A stretch of 64,000 bases of DNA from Ectothiorhodospira shaposhnikovii. GTDB lineage: Bacteria > Pseudomonadota > Gammaproteobacteria > Ectothiorhodospirales > Ectothiorhodospiraceae. Shown here piece after piece: positions 9,090-21,813 of the stretch. Position numbers and translations under genes: made by a program. The notes below the pieces were generated by a model that worked only from the letters and a program-made list of their open reading frames with translations, was not told the DNA's origin and ran no database searches. The number at the start of each line of letters is the position of its first letter. Within the stretch, counting starts at the first letter, position 1. The stretch is taken from NCBI RefSeq assembly GCF_022227765.1, contig NZ_JAJMLZ010000004.1:186001-250000 (forward strand). The letters are read 5' to 3'.

Positions 9090-9461
9090 ATGCCAATGCC
9101 CAAAACGATCCTCACGGTGGATGATTCCGCCTCGATTCGTCAGATGGTGACCTTCACGCTCAAGGGGGCGGGTTATGCCGTCACCGAGGCCGTGGATGGT
9201 CAGGACGGACTCGACAAGGCCCGTGCGGGTCGGTTCGATCTGGTCTTCACCGATCAGAACATGCCGCGCATGGACGGCATCAGCCTGATCAAGGCCCTGC
9301 GAGGACTGCCTCAGTACAAGACGACTCCCATCCTCATGCTGACCACCGAGTCAGGGGACGCCATGAAGGCCCAGGGACGTGCCGCCGGCGCGACGGGGTG
9401 GCTGGTCAAGCCTTTTGATCCCCAGAAGTTGCTGGAGGTCGTTCGCAAGGTCATCGGCTGA
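9090..9461 (+). CDS. cheY: CheY-type response regulator
   Basis: A 123-residue single-domain receiver. The acidic pocket is in LTVDDSAS, the phospho-acceptor Asp is in LVFTDQNMPRMDG, the conserved Thr/Ser switch lies in MLTTES and the Lys in LVKPFDP. AAGGAG sits 5 bases before ATG 9090. It is the first gene of the che operon, directly ahead of cheA, so it is the likely motor-binding or system-specific output. It differs from E. coli CheY in having GWLVKPF in place of GYVVKPF. Confidence 0.94.
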   Translation: MPMPKTILTVDDSASIRQMVTFTLKGAGYAVTEAVDGQDGLDKARAGRFDLVFTDQNMPRMDGISLIKALRGLPQYKTTPILMLTTESGDAMKAQGRAAGATGWLVKPFDPQKLLEVVRKVIG

Positions 9462-9498: not shown

Positions 9499-11724
9499 AT
9501 GACCATCGACATGAGCCAGTTTTATCAGGTGTTTTTCGACGAGGCCGCCGAGCACCTGAGCGAAATGGAAAGCCTGCTCCTGGAGCTGGACGTGACGTCG
9601 GCCGACAAGGAGATGCTCAACGCCATCTTTCGTGCCGCCCACTCCATCAAGGGCGGGGCCGGTACTTTTGGTTTTACCGACATGGCTCAGGTGACCCATG
9701 TGCTGGAGACGCTGCTGGACCGCCTGCGCAAGCAGGAGCTGCAGCCGACCACCGCCATGGTGGATGCCTTTCTGGATGCCGGTGACGTGCTCAAGGCTCA
9801 GCTGGTAGCCCATCAGGAAGGGGGGATTTATGAAGATCCCCGCATCGCCGAGGTCTGTGGCAGACTGGAAAGACTCTCCGTGGTCGGGGCGGATCAGGCA
9901 ATCCCCGCGACAGCCGCCGCCCCGTCCCGGCAGGTCACCCGTGACGGGACGCCTCGGGACGGGGCCGACCTCGCTCCGGCCGACGCTGAACCGTCCTGTC
10001 CGGTCTGGTTGATCCGGATTCATCGAGCGCAGGCGGGACTCACGCCGGACACGTCACTGGATGGACTGGTGTCGGCTCTGGGCGAGTTGGGACGCCTTGA
10101 ATCCCAGGCGGCGGATGCGAATACCCTGTGCTGGCAACTGACCGCCCCGGTCTCCCATGACCAGATCGTGGAATTGCTGGACTTTGTGTGTGATGCCGCC
10201 GGCGTACAGGTGGAAGTCCTGGATCATTCCCCGGCGGCGGATGAAGATCCCGGTTACGGTTTTTTTGAACCATTGCCCGACATTTCCGCCGACGCGGCGT
10301 CGGTCGCGGATGAGGAGCCGGGATTCGGCCTGTTCGAAGATGCGCCGGGAGCGGTGCAGGCGCTGGATCAGGAGCATCCCGGGTATGGTCTGTTCGGCGG
10401 TAGTCCGGGGATGGTCCAGATTGCGGAACTGGCGGCCTCCACCCCGCCTCCCAGCGGCACCGGTTCTCCACCGGAAGAGGGACGTCAGCCTCCAGCGCGG
10501 CGGATGCCCGCCGGTGATGCCTCCATCCGGGTCAGCGTGGAAAAGGTGGACCAGCTCATTAATCTGGTGGGAGAGCTGGTGATCTCCCATGCCATGCTGG
10601 CGGAGTCGGTGTCGGGCCTGGACCCGGTCAGCCATCAGTCCATCTTCAACGGCCTGTCCAACCTTGAGCGCAATTCGCGGGATCTGCAGCAGGCTGTCAT
10701 GTCCATCCGCATGATGCCCATCAGCTTCGTGTTCAATCGGTTTCCCCGGGTGGTGCGCGATACGGCCGCTTCCCTGCAAAAGAAGGTCAACCTCAAGCTG
10801 GTGGGAGAGGATACCGAGCTGGACAAGGGCCTGATCGAGCGTCTGGCCGATCCATTGAATCATCTGGTGCGAAACAGCATCGACCACGGTATCGAACCCC
10901 CGGCCCAGCGTCTGGCCGCCGGCAAGTCCGACACCGGACAGATTGTACTGCGTGCCAGCCACCAAGGCGGCAACATCGTGGTGGAGGTGAGCGACGACGG
11001 TGCCGGACTCAACCGGGACAAGTTGCTGGCCAAGGCCGCGGAGAAGGGCATTCCCCTGCCCGATCACCCGTCCCCCAAGGAGGTCTGGCAGCTCATCTTT
11101 GCCCCGGGCTTCTCCACCGCGGAGAAGGTGACCGACATCTCCGGCCGTGGCGTGGGCATGGATGTGGTGCGTCGGAACATCGAACAGATGAATGGTCGGG
11201 TGGAGATCGACTCCGAACCCGGCAAGGGCACTCGCATCGTGATCCGGCTGCCCCTGACCCTGGCGATTCTGGACGGCATGTCGGTGCGAATGGGAGACGA
11301 GATCTTCATCCTGCCGCTGACCGCCATCCGCGAGTCGGTCCAGCCCCGGCGCGAGCAGGCGAAGACCATATCGGGCAAGGGCCGCGTCTTCCAGGTGGGC
11401 GGGGATTACCTGCCCCTGGTGGAGCTGGACCGACTCTTTTCCCGTGGCAGGCGCAGGACCGCCCTGGAAGAGGGCATCGTGGTGATCGTGGACACCAACG
11501 AGGGTCGGGCAGCGCTGCTGGTGGATGAGCTGATGGCCCAGCATCAGGTTGTGATCAAGAGTCTGGAAACCAATTATCGCAAGGTGGAAGGGGTGTCCGG
11601 GGCCACCATCATGGGCGATGGAAGGGTCGCCCTGATCCTGGATGTGGACGAACTGATGCGGCTCAATCGCAAGTTCGGGTTTTCAACGGCAATCCCCGAG
11701 GCACGGGAGCAGGCACATGACTGA
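9499..11724 (+). CDS. cheA: Chemotaxis histidine kinase CheA
   Basis: A 741-residue class II kinase that phosphorylates CheY and CheB. P1 Hpt domain (about 5-105) has the phosphorylated His48 in [16 protein letters not shown]. The long linker holds three copies of a P-G-(Y/F)-G-x-F motif (about 247, 271 and 290). P3/dimerisation begins near 335 ([20 protein letters not shown]), the P4 ATPase has N-box [14 protein letters not shown] near 452 and G-box GRGVGMDVV, and the CheW-like P5 ends the protein. ATG 9499 was chosen because longer frames run back over cheY. It overlaps cheW by 8 bases. Confidence 0.96.
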
Positions 11725-12220
11725 GACACCGAAGGACAGGGCGGGCATCAGCGGCGATGACCGTCGAGAATATTTGACCTTCACTCTGGGGGATGAGGAG
11801 TACGGCATCGATATCCTCAATGTCCAGGAGATTCGCGGCTACGATGCCGTCACGAAGATCGCCAATTCCCCCGACTTCATCAAGGGCGTGATCAACATGC
11901 GCGGGGTGATCGTGCCGATCATCGACATGCGCCTGAAGTTCCATCTGGGGGTGGCCGAGTACAACCAGTTCACGGTGGTGATCATCCTCAACATCAGCGG
12001 CCGGGTGGTGGGCATGGTGGTGGACGGTGTTTCCGATGTCATCGCCCTCAAGTCCGAGCAGATCCGTCCCGCGCCTGAATTCGGCGCCATTCTGGACACC
12101 GCCTATATCGACGGGCTGGCCACGCTGGATGACCGCATGGTCATCGTGGTGGATATCGAAAAACTCATGAGCAGTGGCGAGATGGGGTTGGTGGATCAGG
12201 TTCAGTCCGGCTCGATCTAG
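11717..12220 (+). CDS. cheW: CheW coupling protein
   Basis: A 167-residue scaffold linking receptors to CheA. It has the two-barrel CheW pattern: [21 protein letters not shown], then [19 protein letters not shown] and the C-terminal [13 protein letters not shown]. Full length. It overlaps the cheA stop by 8 bases, which suggests coupled synthesis with the kinase. Confidence 0.95.
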
Positions 12221-12254: not shown

Positions 12255-14693
12255 ATGCGCTGGTTCGACAATCTTTCAGCAGGGATCAAGATCGGTTTTC
12301 TCGGTGGGGTGCTGATCCTTGCCCTGGGCTACGCCGCCTACGAGGCCTACCTGGGCTTCAGCAGCTGGGCCAATTATTCACAGCAGATCCGCGACAATCG
12401 ATTGCCCTCCATCCGGGCCCTGGGCAATCTCAATACCGAGCGCATGGTGATCCGGGCCCAGACGGTGGAGGTCCTGGTCCAGGATGAAGCCTATACGGAC
12501 AAGACGGCCCTGCGCAGCATCGCCAGCCAGCGGGCGCGCTCCTGGGAGATCATCGATCGCAACTGGAACGAGATCAGCAGTATTCCCCGAATGACGGAGG
12601 AAGGGCAGCGGGTCTTCACCCGGCTCAGTGGGGAATACCTGGCCTGGAGAACCATTTATGTCGAACTCGATCGTTTGATTGAGGCCATGATCAACACCAC
12701 GGACCCGGTGCGCTACGACCAGTTGATGGAAGAATACCGGGCCACCATGAACCGGATGGTGCCCATGTCCAACACCATGGGAGCCACCTTCGATGAACTG
12801 GTGGCCGGCAACATGGCCCGCGCAAGCGCCCAGGCCACCGAGGCGGTCGAGGCTTCCGAGTCCGAGATTCGTCAGTTGGTCTGGCTGGCCGCCATCGCCC
12901 TGTTGCTGGCCGTTGCCCTGGCCATCCTCACCGTTATCAGCATGGTACGGCCCCTCAAGGCGCTGGTGACCCATTTCCATGCCATCGGCGAGGGTGACTA
13001 CGATCAGAAGATCCAGTCCGACCGCAAGGACGAGATCGGCCTGGCCCTCAAGGGCCTCTCGGAAATGCAGGCCAAGCTCAAGGCGGACATTGCCGAGACC
13101 CGGCGCGTGGCGGCGGAAAATCTGCGTATTCGGTATGCCCTGGACAGTGTCTCTTCCAGTGTGATGGTGTCCGAACCCGGCGGTCAGATCATCTACGTCA
13201 ACGAAGCAGTGGTGGGCATGTTCCGCCGGGCCGCCAACGAAATCCGCAAGGATCTGCCCAGCTTCAATCCGGATCAGGTGCTGGGTGCCAGCGTGGATAT
13301 CTTCCACAAGAATCCGGCCCATCAGCGTCAGATGATGGACACCATGCGTTCCACCCATGACACCCAGATCAAGATTGGCGGGCGCACCTTCCGCCTGGTG
13401 GCCAATCCCATTATGAACACCGGCGGTGAACGGGTGGGCGTGGTGATCGAGTGGACGGACCGTACCGAGGAGCTGCGCGTGGAGGAGCAGGTCAGCGCCC
13501 TGGTGGAAGGTGCCGTGAAAGGGGACTTCACCAAGCGCATCCCCACGGAAGACCTGAGCGGTTTCTTCAAGCGTCTGGGCGAGGGCGTCAATACCCTGAT
13601 GGAAAAGACCGCCACGGGACTGGCGGAAGTGGCCCGGGTGCTGGACGCGGTCTCCCACGGGGATCTGACCCAACAGGTGAACGGCGACTACGAAGGCACT
13701 TTCGGCCAGCTCAAGAACGATACCAACAGCACGGTGAATCGCCTCAAGGAACTCATCGGCCAGATCAAGGAATCCGTGGACGCCATCAATACCGCGGCCC
13801 GGGAGATTTCGGTGGGCAACGCCGATCTGTCCCAGCGGACCGAGGAACAGGCCTCCAGCCTGGAGGAAACCGCCTCCAGCATGGAACAGCTCACCTCCAC
13901 GGTGAAACAGACCGCCGACAATGCCCGTCAGGCCAATCAGTTGTCCAATACCGCCCGTGAAACCGCGACCCAGGGGGGCGACAAGGTCAGGGAAGCCGTG
14001 ACCTCGATGAAGGCCATCACCGAAAGCTCCGAAAAGATCAGCGAGATCATCACGGTCATCGATGGTATTGCCTTCCAGACCAATATCCTGGCCCTGAACG
14101 CCGCGGTGGAGGCGGCCCGTGCCGGTGAGCAGGGGCGGGGCTTTGCCGTGGTGGCGGGGGAGGTGCGCAATCTGGCCCAACGTTCGGCCTCCGCCGCCAA
14201 GGAGATCAAGGCCCTGATCGCCGAGGATGCCGCCACCATCAGCCAAGGCAGTAAACTGGTGCTCGAAGCCGGCGAGGCCATGGAAGAGATGGTGAATCAG
14301 GTCAAGCGCGTGGCTGACCTGATTTCCGAGATCTCCGCCGCCGCCGACGAGCAGAGCTCGGGGATCGAGCAGGTGAACACCGCCGTGACCCAGATGGATG
14401 ACGTGACTCAGCAGAATGCCTCGTTGGTGGAAGAGGCGGCGGCCGCTGCCGAATCCCTGGAAGAACAGGCCCAGGGTCTGGCCCGTGCGGTCAGTGTCTT
14501 TCGGGTGGATGACCTGAGCATCGGGACCGGGGCCGTACTGACCCCGCCCCAGCGCAAGGCCCTGCCGGCGGCGGGTGCCACCAGACCCAAGACGCAGTCG
14601 ACCACCAAGGCGATGCCCAGACCTGCCGCCGGCAGCGTGAAAAAGACACCGCCGCCGAGCAAGCCCTCGGATGACGAGTGGGAGGAGTTCTGA
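12255..14693 (+). CDS. Methyl-accepting chemotaxis receptor with PAS domain and CheR-tethering tail
   Basis: An 812-residue receptor. A first membrane segment (about 10-30) and a second (about 208-232) enclose a helical periplasmic domain of the four-helix-bundle type. HAMP follows (233-285), then a cytoplasmic PAS domain (about 288-415, [20 protein letters not shown] onward), a second HAMP-like helix and the signalling hairpin with tip [21 protein letters not shown] Pro/Lys-rich flexible tail ends in EWEEF, a CheR/CheB-binding pentapeptide like NWETF of E. coli Tsr. ATG 12255 gives the clean membrane segment. It lies inside the che operon, so it is probably the main receptor. The ligand is unknown; the PAS domain could sense redox or a cofactor. 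Confidence 0.93.
14681..14692 (+). promoter_or_regulatory. Ribosome site pointing to a CTG start for cheR
   Basis: GGAGGAG at 14681-14687 encodes the last Glu codons of the receptor and sits just before CTG 14690-14692, whose TG begins the receptor TGA stop (CTGA overlap). The only standard start nearby, GTG 14678, lies upstream of this site. Confidence 0.5.
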
Positions 14694-15514
14694 GTCGGGA
14701 ATTTCACTTTACCGATCAGGATTTCGAGCGCGTCCGCGGCCTGATCCATGCCCACGCCGGTATCTCTCTCAACCCGGGCAAGCGCGACATGGTCTATAGT
14801 CGCCTTGCCCGGCGGTTGCGGGCCTGCCGGCTGCAGTCCTTTGAGCAGTATCTGAATGGACTGGAAGTGGACACCCCGGAATGGGAGCAGTTTGTCAATG
14901 CCCTGACCACCAATCTGACCGCCTTCTTCAGGGAGTCCCATCACTTTCCGGTTCTGGCCGCGCACCTGGTCAATGCCCATGCGGTGCACCGGCGCCCGTT
15001 GCGGATCTGGTCCGCCGGCTGCTCGACCGGTGAGGAACCCTATACGATCGCGATGACGGCCATCAATGCCTTCGGCTCCTGGACGCCCCCGGTGAAGATT
15101 CTGGCCACCGATCTGGACACCCAGGTGGTGGAGCATGCTTCGGAGGGCATCTATGCCATGGAACGGGTGAGCAAGGTGCCGGCGGAGGAGATGCGGCGTT
15201 TTTTCCTGCGTGGCCGCGGTCGTCAGGAGGGGATGGCCCGATTGCGTCCCCAGGTCAGGTCACTGGTCACCTTTCGTACCCTGAACCTGCTGGGCGGCGC
15301 CTGGCCGTTGAAAGGCCCTTTTGATGCCATATTCTGCCGTAACGTGTTGATCTATTTTGACAAGCCGACACAATACCGGCTGATGAGCCGCTTTCATCCT
15401 CTCATGCCCCCAGGTTCATTGCTGTTCGTGGGGCACTCGGAGAGCCTGGCCCATGCCGCGGATCTGTTCCGGCTCAAGGGAAAGACCATTTACGAGCCTG
15501 TCATTCGGGCTTGA
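14690..15514 (+). CDS. cheR: CheR chemoreceptor glutamate methyltransferase
   Basis: SAM-dependent methylase of receptor glutamates. N-terminal helical domain ([25 protein letters not shown], about 3-75), then the Rossmann domain with [18 protein letters not shown], the ATDLDTQVV strand and [11 protein letters not shown]. The beta-subdomain that binds pentapeptides is present, matching the EWEEF tail of the adjacent receptor. I give the start as CTG 14690 because the predicted N-terminus (L/M)SREFxFT is what homologs have after their Met and a ribosome site precedes it; GTG 14678 (four residues longer) is the conventional alternative. Confidence 0.92.
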
Positions 15515-15525
15515 GACCTGACTGC

Positions 15526-16137
15526 ATGACCAAGAGCTTTGAAGAAGTCCTGGCCACCACCCATTACTTTGACAGACATTTCGAGACGAATGCAGTCAAG
15601 GTGCTGCCCGGGGAATACTATGTGTCAGAGCCCGGCCTGCTCATGGTGACGGTGCTGGGATCCTGTGTGGGCGCCTGCATTCGGGATCGTGTCAGCGGGA
15701 TCGGCGGGATGAATCATTTCATGCTGCCCGATGACCGTCGCGAAGAAGATTCCAGGGTGGGGAGTGCCATGCGCTATGGTGATTACGCCATGGAAATCCT
15801 CATCAACGAGTTGCTCAAGAAAGGCGCTCGGCGCGCCAATCTGGAGGCCAAGCTGTTTGGGGGCGGGAATGTGATTGCCGGCTTCACGCAGAACGTGGTC
15901 GGAGAGCGCAATGCACGTTTTGCCGTGAATTATCTCAAGACCGAGGGGATTCCCGTGGTGGCCAGGGATCTGATGGGGAATCTTCCACGCAAGGTGTATT
16001 TTTTTCCGGCGGATGGACGGGTGCTGGTACGCAAGTTGAAGACGTTGCGAAACGACACGCTCCTGGAGCGGGAAATTAAATACAGTCAGCGACTGCGACA
16101 GGCCCCCGTGGCCGGGGACGTGGAGTTGTTTTCCTGA
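15526..16137 (+). CDS. cheD: CheD receptor glutamine deamidase
   Basis: Deamidates receptor glutamines to allow methylation and can bind CheC in other bacteria. Catalytic Cys and His are in [12 protein letters not shown] and [21 protein letters not shown] and [18 protein letters not shown] are further family blocks. 203 residues from ATG 15526; a TTG at 15511 overlapping the cheR stop would add five. No cheC is present in the operon. Confidence 0.94.
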
Positions 16138-16205: not shown

Positions 16206-17435
16206 ATGCAGGGCTTGAGTGTGAAGGACGTGATGGATGATCTGAGGCGACACTGGCCCGCGGCACTGGTCAGTGTGGTGATATTGCTGGTGCTGGTGTT
16301 GTTGCCGGCCTGGTTGCCGGCCTGGCTTGCCGTGCTGCTGGTGGCGCTGACCTGGCCTGTCTCCATGATCATGACCGGGCGACCGGGGGCTTCCCCAGCG
16401 GTGGATGAATCCCACGCAGGGGACAGGGGCGAGGCCTCTGCCGACCATGATCAGGCGCTGTGGAGCCTGGTGCTGGAAATCGACCAGTTGATGGTCAGTG
16501 AAATCGATGAGCTCCGGGAGTTGGTGCGGCAGGCGGGCAACCTGGTGTCGCACGCGGCCGGTGATCTGCGGCAGAGTTTTGAGAATCTTTCCGTGACCTC
16601 CCAGGAGCAGCAGGCATTGATCCTGCGTCTGGTGGGCGGTTTTTCGGGCAAGGTCGATGCCGACGGGGACATGATCGATCTCAACAACTTCATGCACGAG
16701 AACTCGAGGGTCATGAACGACCATGTGCAGATGTTGATCGACGTGAGCAAGCACAGCGTGGAAGTGGCCCATCAGGTGGATGATCTTTCCTCGCAGATGG
16801 AACAGATCTTTTCCCTGCTGGACAGTGCCAAGCATATCGCCGGGCAGACCAATCTGTTGGCGCTCAATGCGGCCATTGAAGCGGCCCGGGCGGGGGAGGC
16901 CGGCCGAGGCTTTGCCGTGGTGGCCCAGGAGGTGCGCAAGCTGTCGCGGGATTCGGACAAGTTCAACGAAGAGATCCGCAGTCTGGTGGAGCAGGCCAGC
17001 CGTGTATTCGCCTACACCCGCGAGATCGTCGGTCGCATGGCCTCCCAGGACATGAACGCCTCGATCGATGCCAAGGGGTCGGTGGACGAGATGATGGCAC
17101 AGGTACGGAAGATGAACCGGGTGATGGAGGAGGGGCTGCAGCGGGTTTCGTCAGGGGTGACGTCGGTACATCAGAATGTGGGCGACGCGGTGCGTCTGCT
17201 CCAGTTCGAGGACATCACCGCGCAGGTGCTGGAGCGGGCCGTTCGCCGCATCGACTTCATGGAGCGGTTCGTTGCCGAATTGCGTCAGTTGCCCTTGGCC
17301 GAACCGGGGCACTCAAGGAGCCAGTTGCAGGATTCACGGACTCGACTGGAGGCGCTGCGCTCCCAGTTGAGGGATGCCGCCCATCGGCCCGTGCATCAGA
17401 AGTCCATGGAAGAAGGCGAGATCGAGCTTTTCTGA
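16206..17435 (+). CDS. Membrane-anchored MCP-domain protein with CheZ-like C-terminal motif
   Basis: A 409-residue protein with no recognisable ligand-binding domain. Two close hydrophobic stretches (about 20-40 and 42-60) anchor a cytoplasmic coiled coil carrying the MCP tip ([20 protein letters not shown]) and no HAMP. After the descending helix comes [15 protein letters not shown]: Asp336 and Gln340 have the D-x3-Q spacing of E. coli CheZ (DLTGQ, Asp143/Gln147), the residues CheZ uses to dephosphorylate CheY. The protein ends GEIELF. No separate cheZ is in this operon. GAGGA before ATG 16206 decides the start over a GTG 30 bases earlier. It may be a receptor-like phosphatase; that is inference. 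Confidence 0.8.
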
Positions 17436-18619: not shown

Positions 18620-18925
18620 ATGAGTATCAGTCGCAAGGTCGACAGCGATAAAGGTGTTGTCATCATCAGTATCGAGGGGCGTTTCGACTTTTCCGAACAC
18701 CGCCCGTTCCGTGATACCTACCGGGACATAGCCCCGGGTTCCATGCGTTTCATGGTGGATCTGTCCCGAGCCGACTATCTGGACAGCTCGGCCCTGGGGA
18801 TGTTGCTGCTGCTGCGCGAGCATGCGGGCACGGATGCCGGCCGCGTCACCATCCGGGGATGTACCGAGGATGTCAGGAGAATCCTTCGAATCGCCAACTT
18901 CGATCGTCTGTTCACGCTCGAATAG
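18620..18925 (+). CDS. STAS-domain anti-sigma-factor antagonist (HsbA-like)
   Basis: A 101-residue single STAS domain. The conserved phosphorylatable serine is Ser56 in DYLDSSALGMLLLL. Such proteins bind an anti-sigma or a partner-switch kinase in the unphosphorylated form and release it when phosphorylated. The next gene encodes its probable kinase/phosphatase, 10 bases downstream, the same pairing as HsbA-HsbR of Pseudomonas, where HsbA controls FlgM and swarming. The target here is unknown. Confidence 0.88.
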   Translation: MSISRKVDSDKGVVIISIEGRFDFSEHRPFRDTYRDIAPGSMRFMVDLSRADYLDSSALGMLLLLREHAGTDAGRVTIRGCTEDVRRILRIANFDRLFTLE

Positions 18926-18935
18926 GAGGGCGCCG

Positions 18936-20633
18936 ATGAATGACGGCCTGACCGCTGCCCCCGGCAACCGTGGCCTGGCGCTGGTGGTGGATGACGAGTC
19001 CGCCAACCGCCTGGTGCTGGCCACCATGCTCAGGCGCGAAGGCTTCCAGGTGATGGAAGCCGCGAACGGCGAGCAGGCCCTGGAGCGTTTCGGAGAAACA
19101 CGGCCGGACATCATCTTCATGGATGTGATGATGCCCGGCATGGGCGGTCTGGAAGCGACACGACAGCTCAAGATCCTGTCCGATACGGACTTTGTTCCGA
19201 TCATCTTTCTGACCGCCCTGCACGACGACCAGTCCCTGGTCCGTTGCATCGAGTCCGGTGGCGACGATTTTCTCTCCAAGCCCTTCAGTTTCAATGTCCT
19301 CAAGTCCCGCATCGTGGCCATGGAGCGGGTCCGTGACCTGCATCGCCACATTGCGGCCAAGAGCCGCATGCTGGCGGGGTTGCTGGAGATCGATCGTCAG
19401 GAGCAGATGCTGGCCGAGCGGATCTTCAGTCATGCGGTCAACGATCGCAATGTGGCTGCCGACCATCTGGGGATCCTGATGCGCCCCGCATCCACCTTCA
19501 ATGGGGATGTGTTGCTCAGTCAGCACCTGCCCGACGGCAGCCTGCGTGTCCTACTGGGCGATTTCACCGGCCACGGCCTGTCGGCGGCCATCGGCGCCCT
19601 GCCGGTGGCCGATGCCTTTCATACCATGACCCGCAAGGGCGTGATCGATGAAGTGGTGCTGGAGGAGATCAATCGCAAGCTGTATCGGTTGTTGCCCGCG
19701 GATCGCTTCATGTGCGCCTTCATGGCGACGTTTTCGGTGACCGGCGATGAATTGCGCTGGTGGAACGGCGGGATGCCGGATGGCTGGCTGTGTCAGGCCG
19801 ACGGTGTCCACCCCATGACGTCCCATGCCCTGCCGCTGGGTATCCTGCCCGAGCTGTCCCATGGCGATGCGCCGCGCCGGCGCGTCCTGCGGAAGGGTGA
19901 TCGGGTCTTGCTCGTCACCGACGGGCTGATGGATGCACAGGATGTCGCCGGTCGTATTTTCGGACAGGCCGGATGGCCGGCGCTGATCGCAGGCTGGCGC
20001 CGTGAGCACAGCCTGCTGGGTCCCTTGCTTGCGTCCCTGGACGCCCATTGCGCGGATACGGATCAGCAGGATGATATCGGCGCGGTGGAGATTCCTCTGA
20101 CCGGGGAGATCTTCGGGGGGGCCGATCTTGGCTTCAATCGATCCACCCCTACCGGCGGTGCCTGTTCGGTATTGTTGCGGGATGGGCGTCTGGCACAACC
20201 CCCTTCGATGGCGCAGCTACTGGACATGCTGGGACTGGCGCAGGCCCTGGCCGACCACCTGAATATCCTGGAGACCATTTTCCACGAGCTCTACACCAAT
20301 GCGCTGGACCACGGTATCCTTCGCCTGCCGTCCTGGATGAAGGCGACAGCAGACGGTTTTTCGGCTTATTATATGGAGCGCGAGTGCAGGCTGGCGGCAG
20401 GCCCCGTCGGCAGCATACGGGTGGACATCTGTCATGAGCCCGGACCGCCCGGCACGATCAGGATCAGCATTACCGACAGTGGCCTGGGGTTTGATCATGA
20501 CAAACCGTGTGAGCCGCTGGGCGCCTCGGTCAAGCCCTGGGGGCGCGGTATCGCCCTGGTGCGGGAACTGTGCGAATCCGTGAACTACTACAATCAAGGC
20601 ACCCAAGTGGAGGCAGTCTATCGGTGTGTCTGA
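18936..20633 (+). CDS. REC-PP2C-ATPase partner-switching regulator (HsbR-like)
   Basis: A 565-residue three-domain protein. The receiver (about 10-130) has LVVDDESAN and acceptor Asp63 in IIFMDVMMPG. A PP2C/SpoIIE phosphatase (about 185-400) shows the metal motifs LGDFTGHGLSAA, LLVTDGLMDAQD and QDDIGAVE. The C-terminal GHKL ATPase (about 430-565) has IFHELYTNALDHG and DSGLGFD, like RsbW-type kinases. It could both phosphorylate and dephosphorylate the adjacent STAS protein under control of its receiver. ATG 18936 follows AGGAGG that overlaps the STAS stop. Confidence 0.88.
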   Translation: MNDGLTAAPGNRGLALVVDDESANRLVLATMLRREGFQVMEAANGEQALERFGETRPDIIFMDVMMPGMGGLEATRQLKILSDTDFVPIIFLTALHDDQSLVRCIESGGDDFLSKPFSFNVLKSRIVAMERVRDLHRHIAAKSRMLAGLLEIDRQEQMLAERIFSHAVNDRNVAADHLGILMRPASTFNGDVLLSQHLPDGSLRVLLGDFTGHGLSAAIGALPVADAFHTMTRKGVIDEVVLEEINRKLYRLLPADRFMCAFMATFSVTGDELRWWNGGMPDGWLCQADGVHPMTSHALPLGILPELSHGDAPRRRVLRKGDRVLLVTDGLMDAQDVAGRIFGQAGWPALIAGWRREHSLLGPLLASLDAHCADTDQQDDIGAVEIPLTGEIFGGADLGFNRSTPTGGACSVLLRDGRLAQPPSMAQLLDMLGLAQALADHLNILETIFHELYTNALDHGILRLPSWMKATADGFSAYYMERECRLAAGPVGSIRVDICHEPGPPGTIRISITDSGLGFDHDKPCEPLGASVKPWGRGIALVRELCESVNYYNQGTQVEAVYRCV

Positions 20634-20670: not shown

Positions 20671-21813
20671 ATGTCCAGTAGTCCTCATCATCAGGAGCAG
20701 GAATACCCTCTGAGCCGTAATGGTGCCCGCATCATGGTGGTGGATGACGAGCGCGCCAACCTGGTGCTCATGGAGCGGCTGCTGCGCACCGACGGCTATG
20801 CCAATCTGGTGCTGGTCCAGGATCCTCGACAGGTCATGAGTGCCTATCGGGAAGCACGAACGGATCTGATCCTGCTGGATATCCAGATGCCCCATATGGA
20901 TGGTTTTCAGGTCATCGAACAGTTTGCCGCGCTCGAAGACCCGCTGGTACCGCCGATCCTGGTGCTGACCGCGCAGGCAAGCCGTGAATACATGCTGCGT
21001 GCCCTGAACGTGGGGGCGAGGGATTTCATCGGCAAGCCGTTTGATCGGGCCGAGGTGCTGGCACGGGTCCGCAATATGCTGGATGTGCAGCTGGCGCACC
21101 GCATGACTCATGACCAGAAGGACGTGCTGGAACAGATGGTCCGCGAGCGGACCCAGGAGATCCGCAACACCCGCCTGCAGGTGGTTCAGCGGCTGGGCCG
21201 GGCCGCCGAGTACCGGGACAACGAGACCGGCTTTCATATCCTGCGCATGAGCCATACCTGTGAATTGCTGGCCCGGCATGTGGGTTGGAGTCAGGCGGAC
21301 TGCGATCGCATGCTTCATGCCAGTCCCATGCATGATGTGGGCAAGATCGGTATCCCCGACCATATCCTGCTCAAACCCGGCAAGCTCACGCCGGAAGAGT
21401 GGCGCATCATGCAGACCCATACCACCATCGGCGGGGATATCCTCAGTGGAGATGATCCCGATCTGCTGGACCTGGCCCGGGAAATCGCCCTGTCTCATCA
21501 CGAAAAATGGGATGGCAGCGGTTATCCGCTGGGGCTGAGCGGGGAAGAGATTCCCATCAGCGGACGCATCGCCGCCCTGGCGGATGTGTTCGATGCCCTG
21601 ACCTCGGAGCGGACCTATAAGAAGGCCTGGTCGGTTCAGGACGCCCTGGAACTCATTCGGGAGTTGAGCGGCTCCCATTTCGACCCTCGGTTGACCGAGC
21701 TGTTTTTCAGTCTGGTTCCCGAGATCCTGGCTATTCGGGACCGTTTTGCCGAGCCCCCGGGCATGGATGCCGACCGGCACCTTTCCCAGGGGGGCGCCGA
21801 CGGCGACGGTTGA
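20671..21813 (+). CDS. Response regulator with HD-GYP c-di-GMP phosphodiesterase domain
   Basis: A 380-residue RpfG-type protein. The receiver (about 12-135) has MVVDDERAN, acceptor Asp in LILLDIQMPHMDG and Lys in IGKPFDR. The HD-GYP domain has metal-binding His-Asp in MHDVGKIGIPD (about 221) and HHEKWDGSGYP (about 276), so it should be catalytically competent for c-di-GMP hydrolysis. It is the last gene of the che operon, 37 bases after the partner-switch regulator, linking chemotaxis signalling to c-di-GMP level. The cognate kinase could be CheA; that is inference. Confidence 0.92.
   Translation: MSSSPHHQEQEYPLSRNGARIMVVDDERANLVLMERLLRTDGYANLVLVQDPRQVMSAYREARTDLILLDIQMPHMDGFQVIEQFAALEDPLVPPILVLTAQASREYMLRALNVGARDFIGKPFDRAEVLARVRNMLDVQLAHRMTHDQKDVLEQMVRERTQEIRNTRLQVVQRLGRAAEYRDNETGFHILRMSHTCELLARHVGWSQADCDRMLHASPMHDVGKIGIPDHILLKPGKLTPEEWRIMQTHTTIGGDILSGDDPDLLDLAREIALSHHEKWDGSGYPLGLSGEEIPISGRIAALADVFDALTSERTYKKAWSVQDALELIRELSGSHFDPRLTELFFSLVPEILAIRDRFAEPPGMDADRHLSQGGADGDG

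Follow-up and report, generated by a model that had tools for sequence, protein, structure and literature searches.

A McpA-like short chemoreceptor in an F7 cluster of Ectothiorhodospira shaposhnikovii carries a CheZ-type D-x3-Q motif and may act as a receiver phosphatase

The window analysed here is a stretch of 64,000 nucleotides from E. shaposhnikovii. It contains a chemosensory gene cluster in the order cheY-cheA-cheW-mcp-cheR-cheD-[mcpA-like]-cheB-STAS-REC/PP2C/HATPase, of the kind that Ortega et al. call F7 'stage 1' (PMC7184735). The ORF between cheD and cheB encodes a receptor of the McpA-like type (PA0180/VCA1088/SO_2117). The genes of the cluster are as follows.

9090-9461, + strand: cheY of the F7 cluster, a single receiver domain (PF00072, 1.3e-27)
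9499-11724, + strand: cheA (Hpt, H-kinase_dim, HATPase and CheW domains)
11717-12220, + strand: cheW (PF01584, 1.1e-39)
12255-14693, + strand: second chemoreceptor of the F7 cluster (HAMP, HAMP_2 and MCPsignal; ends in the CheR tether EWEEF)
14678-15514, + strand: cheR (PF01739, 2.1e-59)
15526-16137, + strand: cheD (PF03975, 4.8e-34), with the C-terminus GDVELFS, of the same tag type as in the McpA-like protein
16206-17435, + strand: McpA-like short MCP of 409 amino acids with a CheZ-type D-x3-Q motif (assigned by translation, profile match, gene context and C-terminus; PMC7184735)
17494-18564, + strand: cheB, start approximate (CheB_methylest and Response_reg)
18620-18925, + strand: STAS anti-sigma-antagonist (PF13466/PF01740)
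18933-20633, + strand: response regulator REC-SpoIIE/PP2C-HATPase of the CrsR/HsbR type (domain search)

The known F7 McpA-like receptors PA0180/CttP/McpA, VCA1088/Mlp44 and SO_2117/McpAso occur in the same cheY-A-W-mcp-R-D-B-STAS-PP2C context, except that mcpA follows cheB in stage 1 clusters (PMC7184735), whereas in the window it lies between cheD and cheB. One cheW was found in the window cluster. Receptors of this type combine a transmembrane region and a short signalling domain with a conserved C-terminus, as does the protein encoded at 16206-17435, which ends in E-I-E-L-F and lacks the CheR pentapeptide x-[HFYW]-x2-[HFYW], as the McpA-like class requires. The ORF does not encode an odd fusion; it belongs to a receptor type that was already known.

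Some neighbouring genes have features of their own. The second receptor is apparently transmembrane, with two HAMP domains, the EWEEF ending and an N-terminus that is 4HB-like (PF12729, 2.8e-6, at the cut-off). It is thus unlike the cytosolic Aer2 that is usual in stage 1 F7 clusters, and is perhaps an Aer2-like/Tar-like intermediate. The STAS and REC-PP2C-HATPase genes (18620-20633) resemble CrsA/CrsR, the partner switch through which Shewanella controls RpoS, and such a pair often adjoins mcpA even where cheA is located elsewhere. The cluster closes with a response regulator whose HD domain (PF13487) is of the c-di-GMP phosphodiesterase type (20671-21813).

According to the literature, it is not known what McpA-like receptors do or what their conserved C-terminus is for (PMC7184735, PMC7534058). 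Deletion of mcpA leaves F7 arrays unaffected in Vibrio cholerae and Pseudomonas aeruginosa, and the C-terminus is called conserved with an unclear role (PMC7184735). VCA1088 is without an experimental report on its function (PMC7534058); the same review covers CttP, for which trichloroethylene sensing has been reported in P. aeruginosa. In Shewanella oneidensis, McpAso forms polar clusters together with CheA3, the kinase of F6, and mcpA resides within the F7 operon. Its deletion does not change swimming, and its overproduction raises swimming via CheA3, as does that of three ordinary MCPs (PMC9855816).

The features of the McpA-like protein itself are given below.

16254-16376, + strand: N-terminal membrane hairpin, residues 17-57 (hydrophobic sequence and predicted helices 17-32 and 36-57)
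16758-16997, + strand: core of the MCP signalling hairpin, residues 185-264 (PF00015 MCPsignal, 2.2e-29)
17196-17231, + strand: CheZ-type motif of 12 residues, 331-342 (alignment, hhalign and helical phase)
17211-17213 and 17223-17225, + strand: codons of D336 and Q340, within this motif
17415-17432, + strand: C-terminal tag GEIELF, residues 404-409, of a type common to CheD (F409 in 90, G404 in 87 and L408 in 85 of 91 sequences)

A stretch of 31 residues in the signalling hairpin matches ordinary chemoreceptors, and Pfam searches of the 409-residue protein yielded PF00015 over residues 185-264 alone, with neither a HAMP nor a sensor domain. The original prediction of a receptor hairpin lacking both was therefore accurate. 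It overlooked two hydrophobic helices at the N-terminus (residues 17-32 and 36-57), which indicate that the protein is membrane-anchored. The AlphaFold2 model from which these helices are taken is of moderate quality (pLDDT 77, pTM 0.43) and predicts further helices at residues 74-146, 159-229 and 234-360. Past the hairpin come, in order, the long helix bearing the motif (15 residues, 332-346, including D336 and Q340), a tail, and a C-terminus that closes with GEIELF. When the model was searched with Foldseek and VIA-align, chemoreceptors were the best matches and generic coiled coils the next; CheZ was not among the matches listed.

The motif occupies the place that the second methylation helix (MH2) takes in ordinary receptors, and in an ordinary neighbouring receptor of the same genome the residue aligned with Q333 is the second Glu of a pair. 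As judged by a regular expression, the methylation consensus is mostly lost from McpA-like proteins, being present in 13 of 84 at MH1 and 6 of 84 at MH2, versus 21 and 19 of 37 other MCPs. The protein shares its signalling hairpin and its fold matches with ordinary MCPs and differs from them in having no sensor or HAMP domain, in a methylation consensus that is mostly lacking, and in the motif that replaces the second methylation helix.

In an alignment of 91 McpA-like sequences, which span about 25-80% identity, D336 is present in all and Q340 in 90, the sole exception being a shortened sequence (L158). Together with Q333 (90/91), F334 (87/91, plus three Tyr), F409 and D282 (88/91), they are the best-conserved residues of the C-terminal half, while positions 338-339 and 341-344 drift. 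The D-x3-Q arrangement of these two residues, as first read from the translation, is therefore well founded. All 21 full-length orthologs from an order-level search carry LQFED...Q, and their last residues are ELF in 20 and EFF in the remaining one; the nearest named relative is from Ectothiorhodospira lacustris (80% identity), and a scan of the genome contigs returned a single close relative only. McpA-like proteins are present in 68 of 276 gammaproteobacterial genomes in a class-level search. A phylum-level search and extra loci added a group ending in ITFF and, outside the Gammaproteobacteria, a group without transmembrane helices. Loci assigned by gene order and size as Shewanella-like (L211) and Pseudomonas-like (L197-199) bear the same motif.

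The position of the motif is equally constant. All but one of 86 sequences have it at +122 relative to the hairpin Gln, additional lineages retain QFxDxxxQ at +122 or +123, and the distance to the hairpin tip is fixed in 120 related short MCPs. D-x3-Q is invariant across membrane-anchored and TM-less forms, and the 19 ordinary MCPs of the same genome that are readable through that region all lack the motif at the corresponding place. In a tree of the signalling region, the motif bearers form one large clade, which also holds two rows representing broken or cut McpA genes, and a small long-branch group (L002, L299 and L325); this topology would fit one origin or two origins alike.

The same two residues were originally likened to the active site of CheZ. 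When a profile of the 120 short D-x3-Q MCPs was compared with CheZ by hhalign, the alignment contained no gaps and kept Asp and Gln in register (E 7e-7), and its score of 39.5 compares with 12.0 ± 2.3 (maximum 20.3) for column shuffles. A profile-profile comparison of residues 290-365 with 59 CheZ sequences gave E 5e-5; no column shuffle exceeded 21.1, versus scores of 30.7 for residues 290-365 and 39.5 for the 120 MCPs, and canonical MCPs reached E 0.035-0.038 in such comparisons. However, masking the 11 motif columns abolished the similarity, and therefore the likeness to CheZ is one of the motif only, with whole-domain likeness and common descent left unsupported. Homology along the whole helix was rejected on this ground, the N-terminal half giving an E of only 0.067. 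The Pfam CheZ family (PF04344) scores the protein at 9.4 bits against a cut-off of 30.7 (E 1.2) and matches none of 42 McpA-like members at E≤0.1. The protein is not a member of the CheZ family; the predicted correspondence thus holds in register over the motif and does not extend to the family profile.

Three further agreements are partly independent of the profile match. First, the A-x-x-F-Q residues that precede the CheZ Asp (PMC7750401) are matched in the 120 short MCPs by S/A in 93, F/Y in all and Q/E in 110, which bears out the prediction of CheZ-like flanks. Second, the helical phase, computed with a 3.5-residue repeat and with the motif columns excluded, places D 109-115 degrees and Q 160-167 degrees away from the hydrophobic core, versus 98-111 and 149-162 degrees in CheZ. 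Both residues are thus predicted to lie on the CheZ-like outer face of the bundle, within about 20 degrees. Third, the C-terminus follows Q by 62-77 residues in D-x3-Q MCPs and by 70-81 in CheZ. The acidic C-terminus that had been pointed out as a possible docking peptide is indeed conserved, CheZ-like in spacing and terminated by Phe, although the peptide itself is GEIELF here and VDDLLSSLGF in CheZ.

In sum, McpA-like proteins share with CheZ the pattern [AS]xxF[QE]D[LIM]xxQ, the helical phase, the neighbourhood of a receiver gene, and an acidic, Phe-terminated C-terminus at a similar distance. They differ in having a longer, MCP-type hairpin and a membrane anchor, and in the absence of sequence similarity beyond the motif or of a match to the Pfam family. 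Some 106 residues separate the Asp from the hairpin tip, a distance far greater than that in CheZ. Consequently, the whole bundles are not superposable, and convergence on the motif or its transplantation is as likely as descent. In CheZ and in CheC/CheX, an amide and an acid enter the receiver site, where the amide orients a water molecule and the acid binds the conserved Lys; CheC/CheX/FliY and the Rap phosphatases use in principle the same chemistry, with an amide side chain and, in CheC/CheX, an acid (PMC3035606). The folds and motifs of these proteins are other than those described here, and a profile search found no CheX/CheC-type domain in the McpA-like protein.

The original prediction also held that the operon lacks cheZ. 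This is right, given that a CheZ profile search found no match among the ORFs of the window. The idea that the motif substitutes for CheZ in an organism without it fails, since a standard cheZ (251 bits) is present on another contig (C2) of the same genome, exclusively in the flagellar F6 cluster, and cheZ occurs in 22 of 22 Ectothiorhodospiraceae genomes with a full-length ortholog. In the published survey, stage 1 and 2 genomes have cheZ solely alongside the F6 system of the flagellum (PMC7184735). Relatives that keep the motif without any cheZ above the cut-off, originally proposed as a check, do exist in four genomes (G106, G117, G132 and G223). CheX was considered as the missing phosphatase and rejected, as a profile search found no match anywhere in the genome.

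The E. shaposhnikovii genome encodes five CheAs (PF02895). The F6 cluster has cheY-cheZ, and the pilus-type CheA (a frame of 1828 amino acids) is accompanied by neither cheZ nor a D-x3-Q MCP; the window cluster and those on contigs C39 and C1 have one D-x3-Q MCP apiece and no cheZ. The two latter clusters, MCP-REC-STAS-CheA-MCP-CheW-CheR-CheB (L262, C39) and CheB-CheR-REC-CheA-REC-MCP (L263, C1), each have their D-x3-Q MCP adjoining a receiver gene. Among 57 genomes with CheA, McpA-like proteins are present in 26 of the 39 that have a CheA neither cheZ-linked nor pilus-like versus 1 of the 18 that do not (Fisher p 1e-5, kinship ignored); the one exception has two CheAs close to one cheZ. In many genomes mcpA is located away from cheA (e.g. 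G078, G094, G118 and G132), and so a one-to-one pairing of D-x3-Q proteins with clusters is not proposed as a general rule.

Within 700 bp and on the same strand, 56 of 68 D-x3-Q MCP loci have a receiver gene and 40 of 68 a STAS gene, whereas neither is that near to any of 20 other MCPs of the Ectothiorhodospira genome. A single-domain receiver directly adjoins in 27 of the 68 loci, and a REC-PP2C regulator is nearby in 24. Because chemosensory clusters are rich in receivers, this proximity is supporting rather than decisive.

The C-terminal tag provides another connection. The pattern [VI][ED]LF marks the C-terminus of 61 of 65 D-x3-Q MCPs and 32 of 43 CheD proteins. None of the 533 CheB, CheR, CheW, STAS and single REC proteins encoded at the same loci has it, and it was seen in just one other MCP out of 70 and in 17 out of 4423 unlabelled ORFs. 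Its near confinement to two protein types points to a docking partner that CheD and the D-x3-Q MCPs may share. Both the adjacent CheD (15526-16137) and the D-x3-Q MCPs carry the tag type G[DE][VI]ELF.

Given that the motif sits at the place of MH2 and the methylation consensus is mostly absent, we propose that a receptor has been turned into a receiver phosphatase. A phosphorylated receiver domain of the same cluster would dock on the C-terminal coiled-coil helix of the McpA-like protein, probably aided by the flexible tail and by GEIELF as a tether. D336 would contact the conserved lysine of the receiver and Q340 would position a water molecule for hydrolysis of the aspartyl phosphate, so that the McpA-like protein would terminate the signal of a CheA system without its own cheZ. 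Either the F7 CheY or the REC-PP2C regulator encoded next door would be the likeliest substrate, with CheB and the F6 CheY also candidates. That the protein binds a receiver is, in our judgement, probable; that it catalyses dephosphorylation is plausible, with the chances about equal either way. For the proposal as a whole, namely that a short receptor of the F7 cluster ends the signal of a cheZ-less CheA system through a CheZ-type active site, we consider the balance even, and the original interpretation is to this extent partly supported.

One alternative, which partly overlaps with this proposal, is that McpA is a plain F6 chemoreceptor and that any phosphatase activity would act on the F6 CheY atop that of CheZ. 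The clustering of McpA with CheA3 and its effect on swimming (PMC9855816), the review of CttP (PMC7534058) and the standard cheZ in every family genome with a full-length ortholog speak for it, but ordinary MCPs had the same effect and therefore the overproduction test does not discriminate (PMC9855816). The protein also has no sensor domain, its distribution tracks the non-F6 CheA systems, and paralogs within other CheA clusters carry the same motif; we regard this alternative as unlikely, though worth keeping in view. It is rather improbable that the motif is non-catalytic and serves docking only, with McpA as a scaffold that recruits the REC-PP2C regulator, CheY or another Che protein to the array and thereby links F6 and F7. 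The conserved exposed patch (Q333, D336, I337 and Q340), the REC/STAS/PP2C genes beside mcpA and, in Shewanella, the residence of McpA in F6 arrays with its gene in the F7 operon (PMC9855816) would suit such a scaffold, yet the invariant residues are exactly the two of CheZ chemistry amid drifting neighbours, and bare docking does not call for an amide at D+4 across all lineages. Least probable is a structural motif for receptor-receptor packing, membrane-proximal signalling or adaptation, with a coincidental likeness to CheZ: the fixed +122 position, the MH2 location with Q333 at the second Glu of the pair and the dependence of all CheZ similarity on 11 columns favour it, but the scarcity of the methylation consensus, the predicted orientation of D336 and Q340 away from the core, their invariance in anchored and TM-less forms and the position beside receiver genes argue against it.

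The phosphatase proposal would fit the suggested link between the F6 and F7 systems, as the enzyme would be carried in the F6 array while being encoded with F7; from there, it could act on the F6 CheY, the F7 CheY or a CrsR-type regulator. More broadly, and tentatively, with the balance tipped a little against, a large proteobacterial family of chemoreceptor-like proteins may constitute built-in CheZ-type phosphatases for cheZ-less, non-flagellar CheA systems. These would have arisen by conversion of the second methylation helix into an active site and, like CheD, would carry a C-terminal tag through which both dock to one partner. In the open-access papers searched, we found no description of a CheZ-like motif in chemoreceptors nor, for McpA-like receptors, any mention of D-x3-Q, of its constant position or of the CheZ-like features around it. 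If McpA does have a CheZ-type active site, this would explain what these receptors do and why cheZ is restricted to F6, and a receptor would then act directly on a response regulator. D336 and Q340 offer themselves as mutation targets in tractable species, S. oneidensis among them.

Some minor observations concern other parts of these proteins. D282 (17049-17051) is conserved to the extent given above. Q135 (16608-16610) is invariant in 22 close sequences and present in at least 90% of 42, and hairpin register predicts that it lies roughly opposite D336. Outside the Gammaproteobacteria, some genomes contain a tandem pair of McpA-like units (G404, locus L207 on contig G404:C52; G416, G394, G375, G391 and G412).
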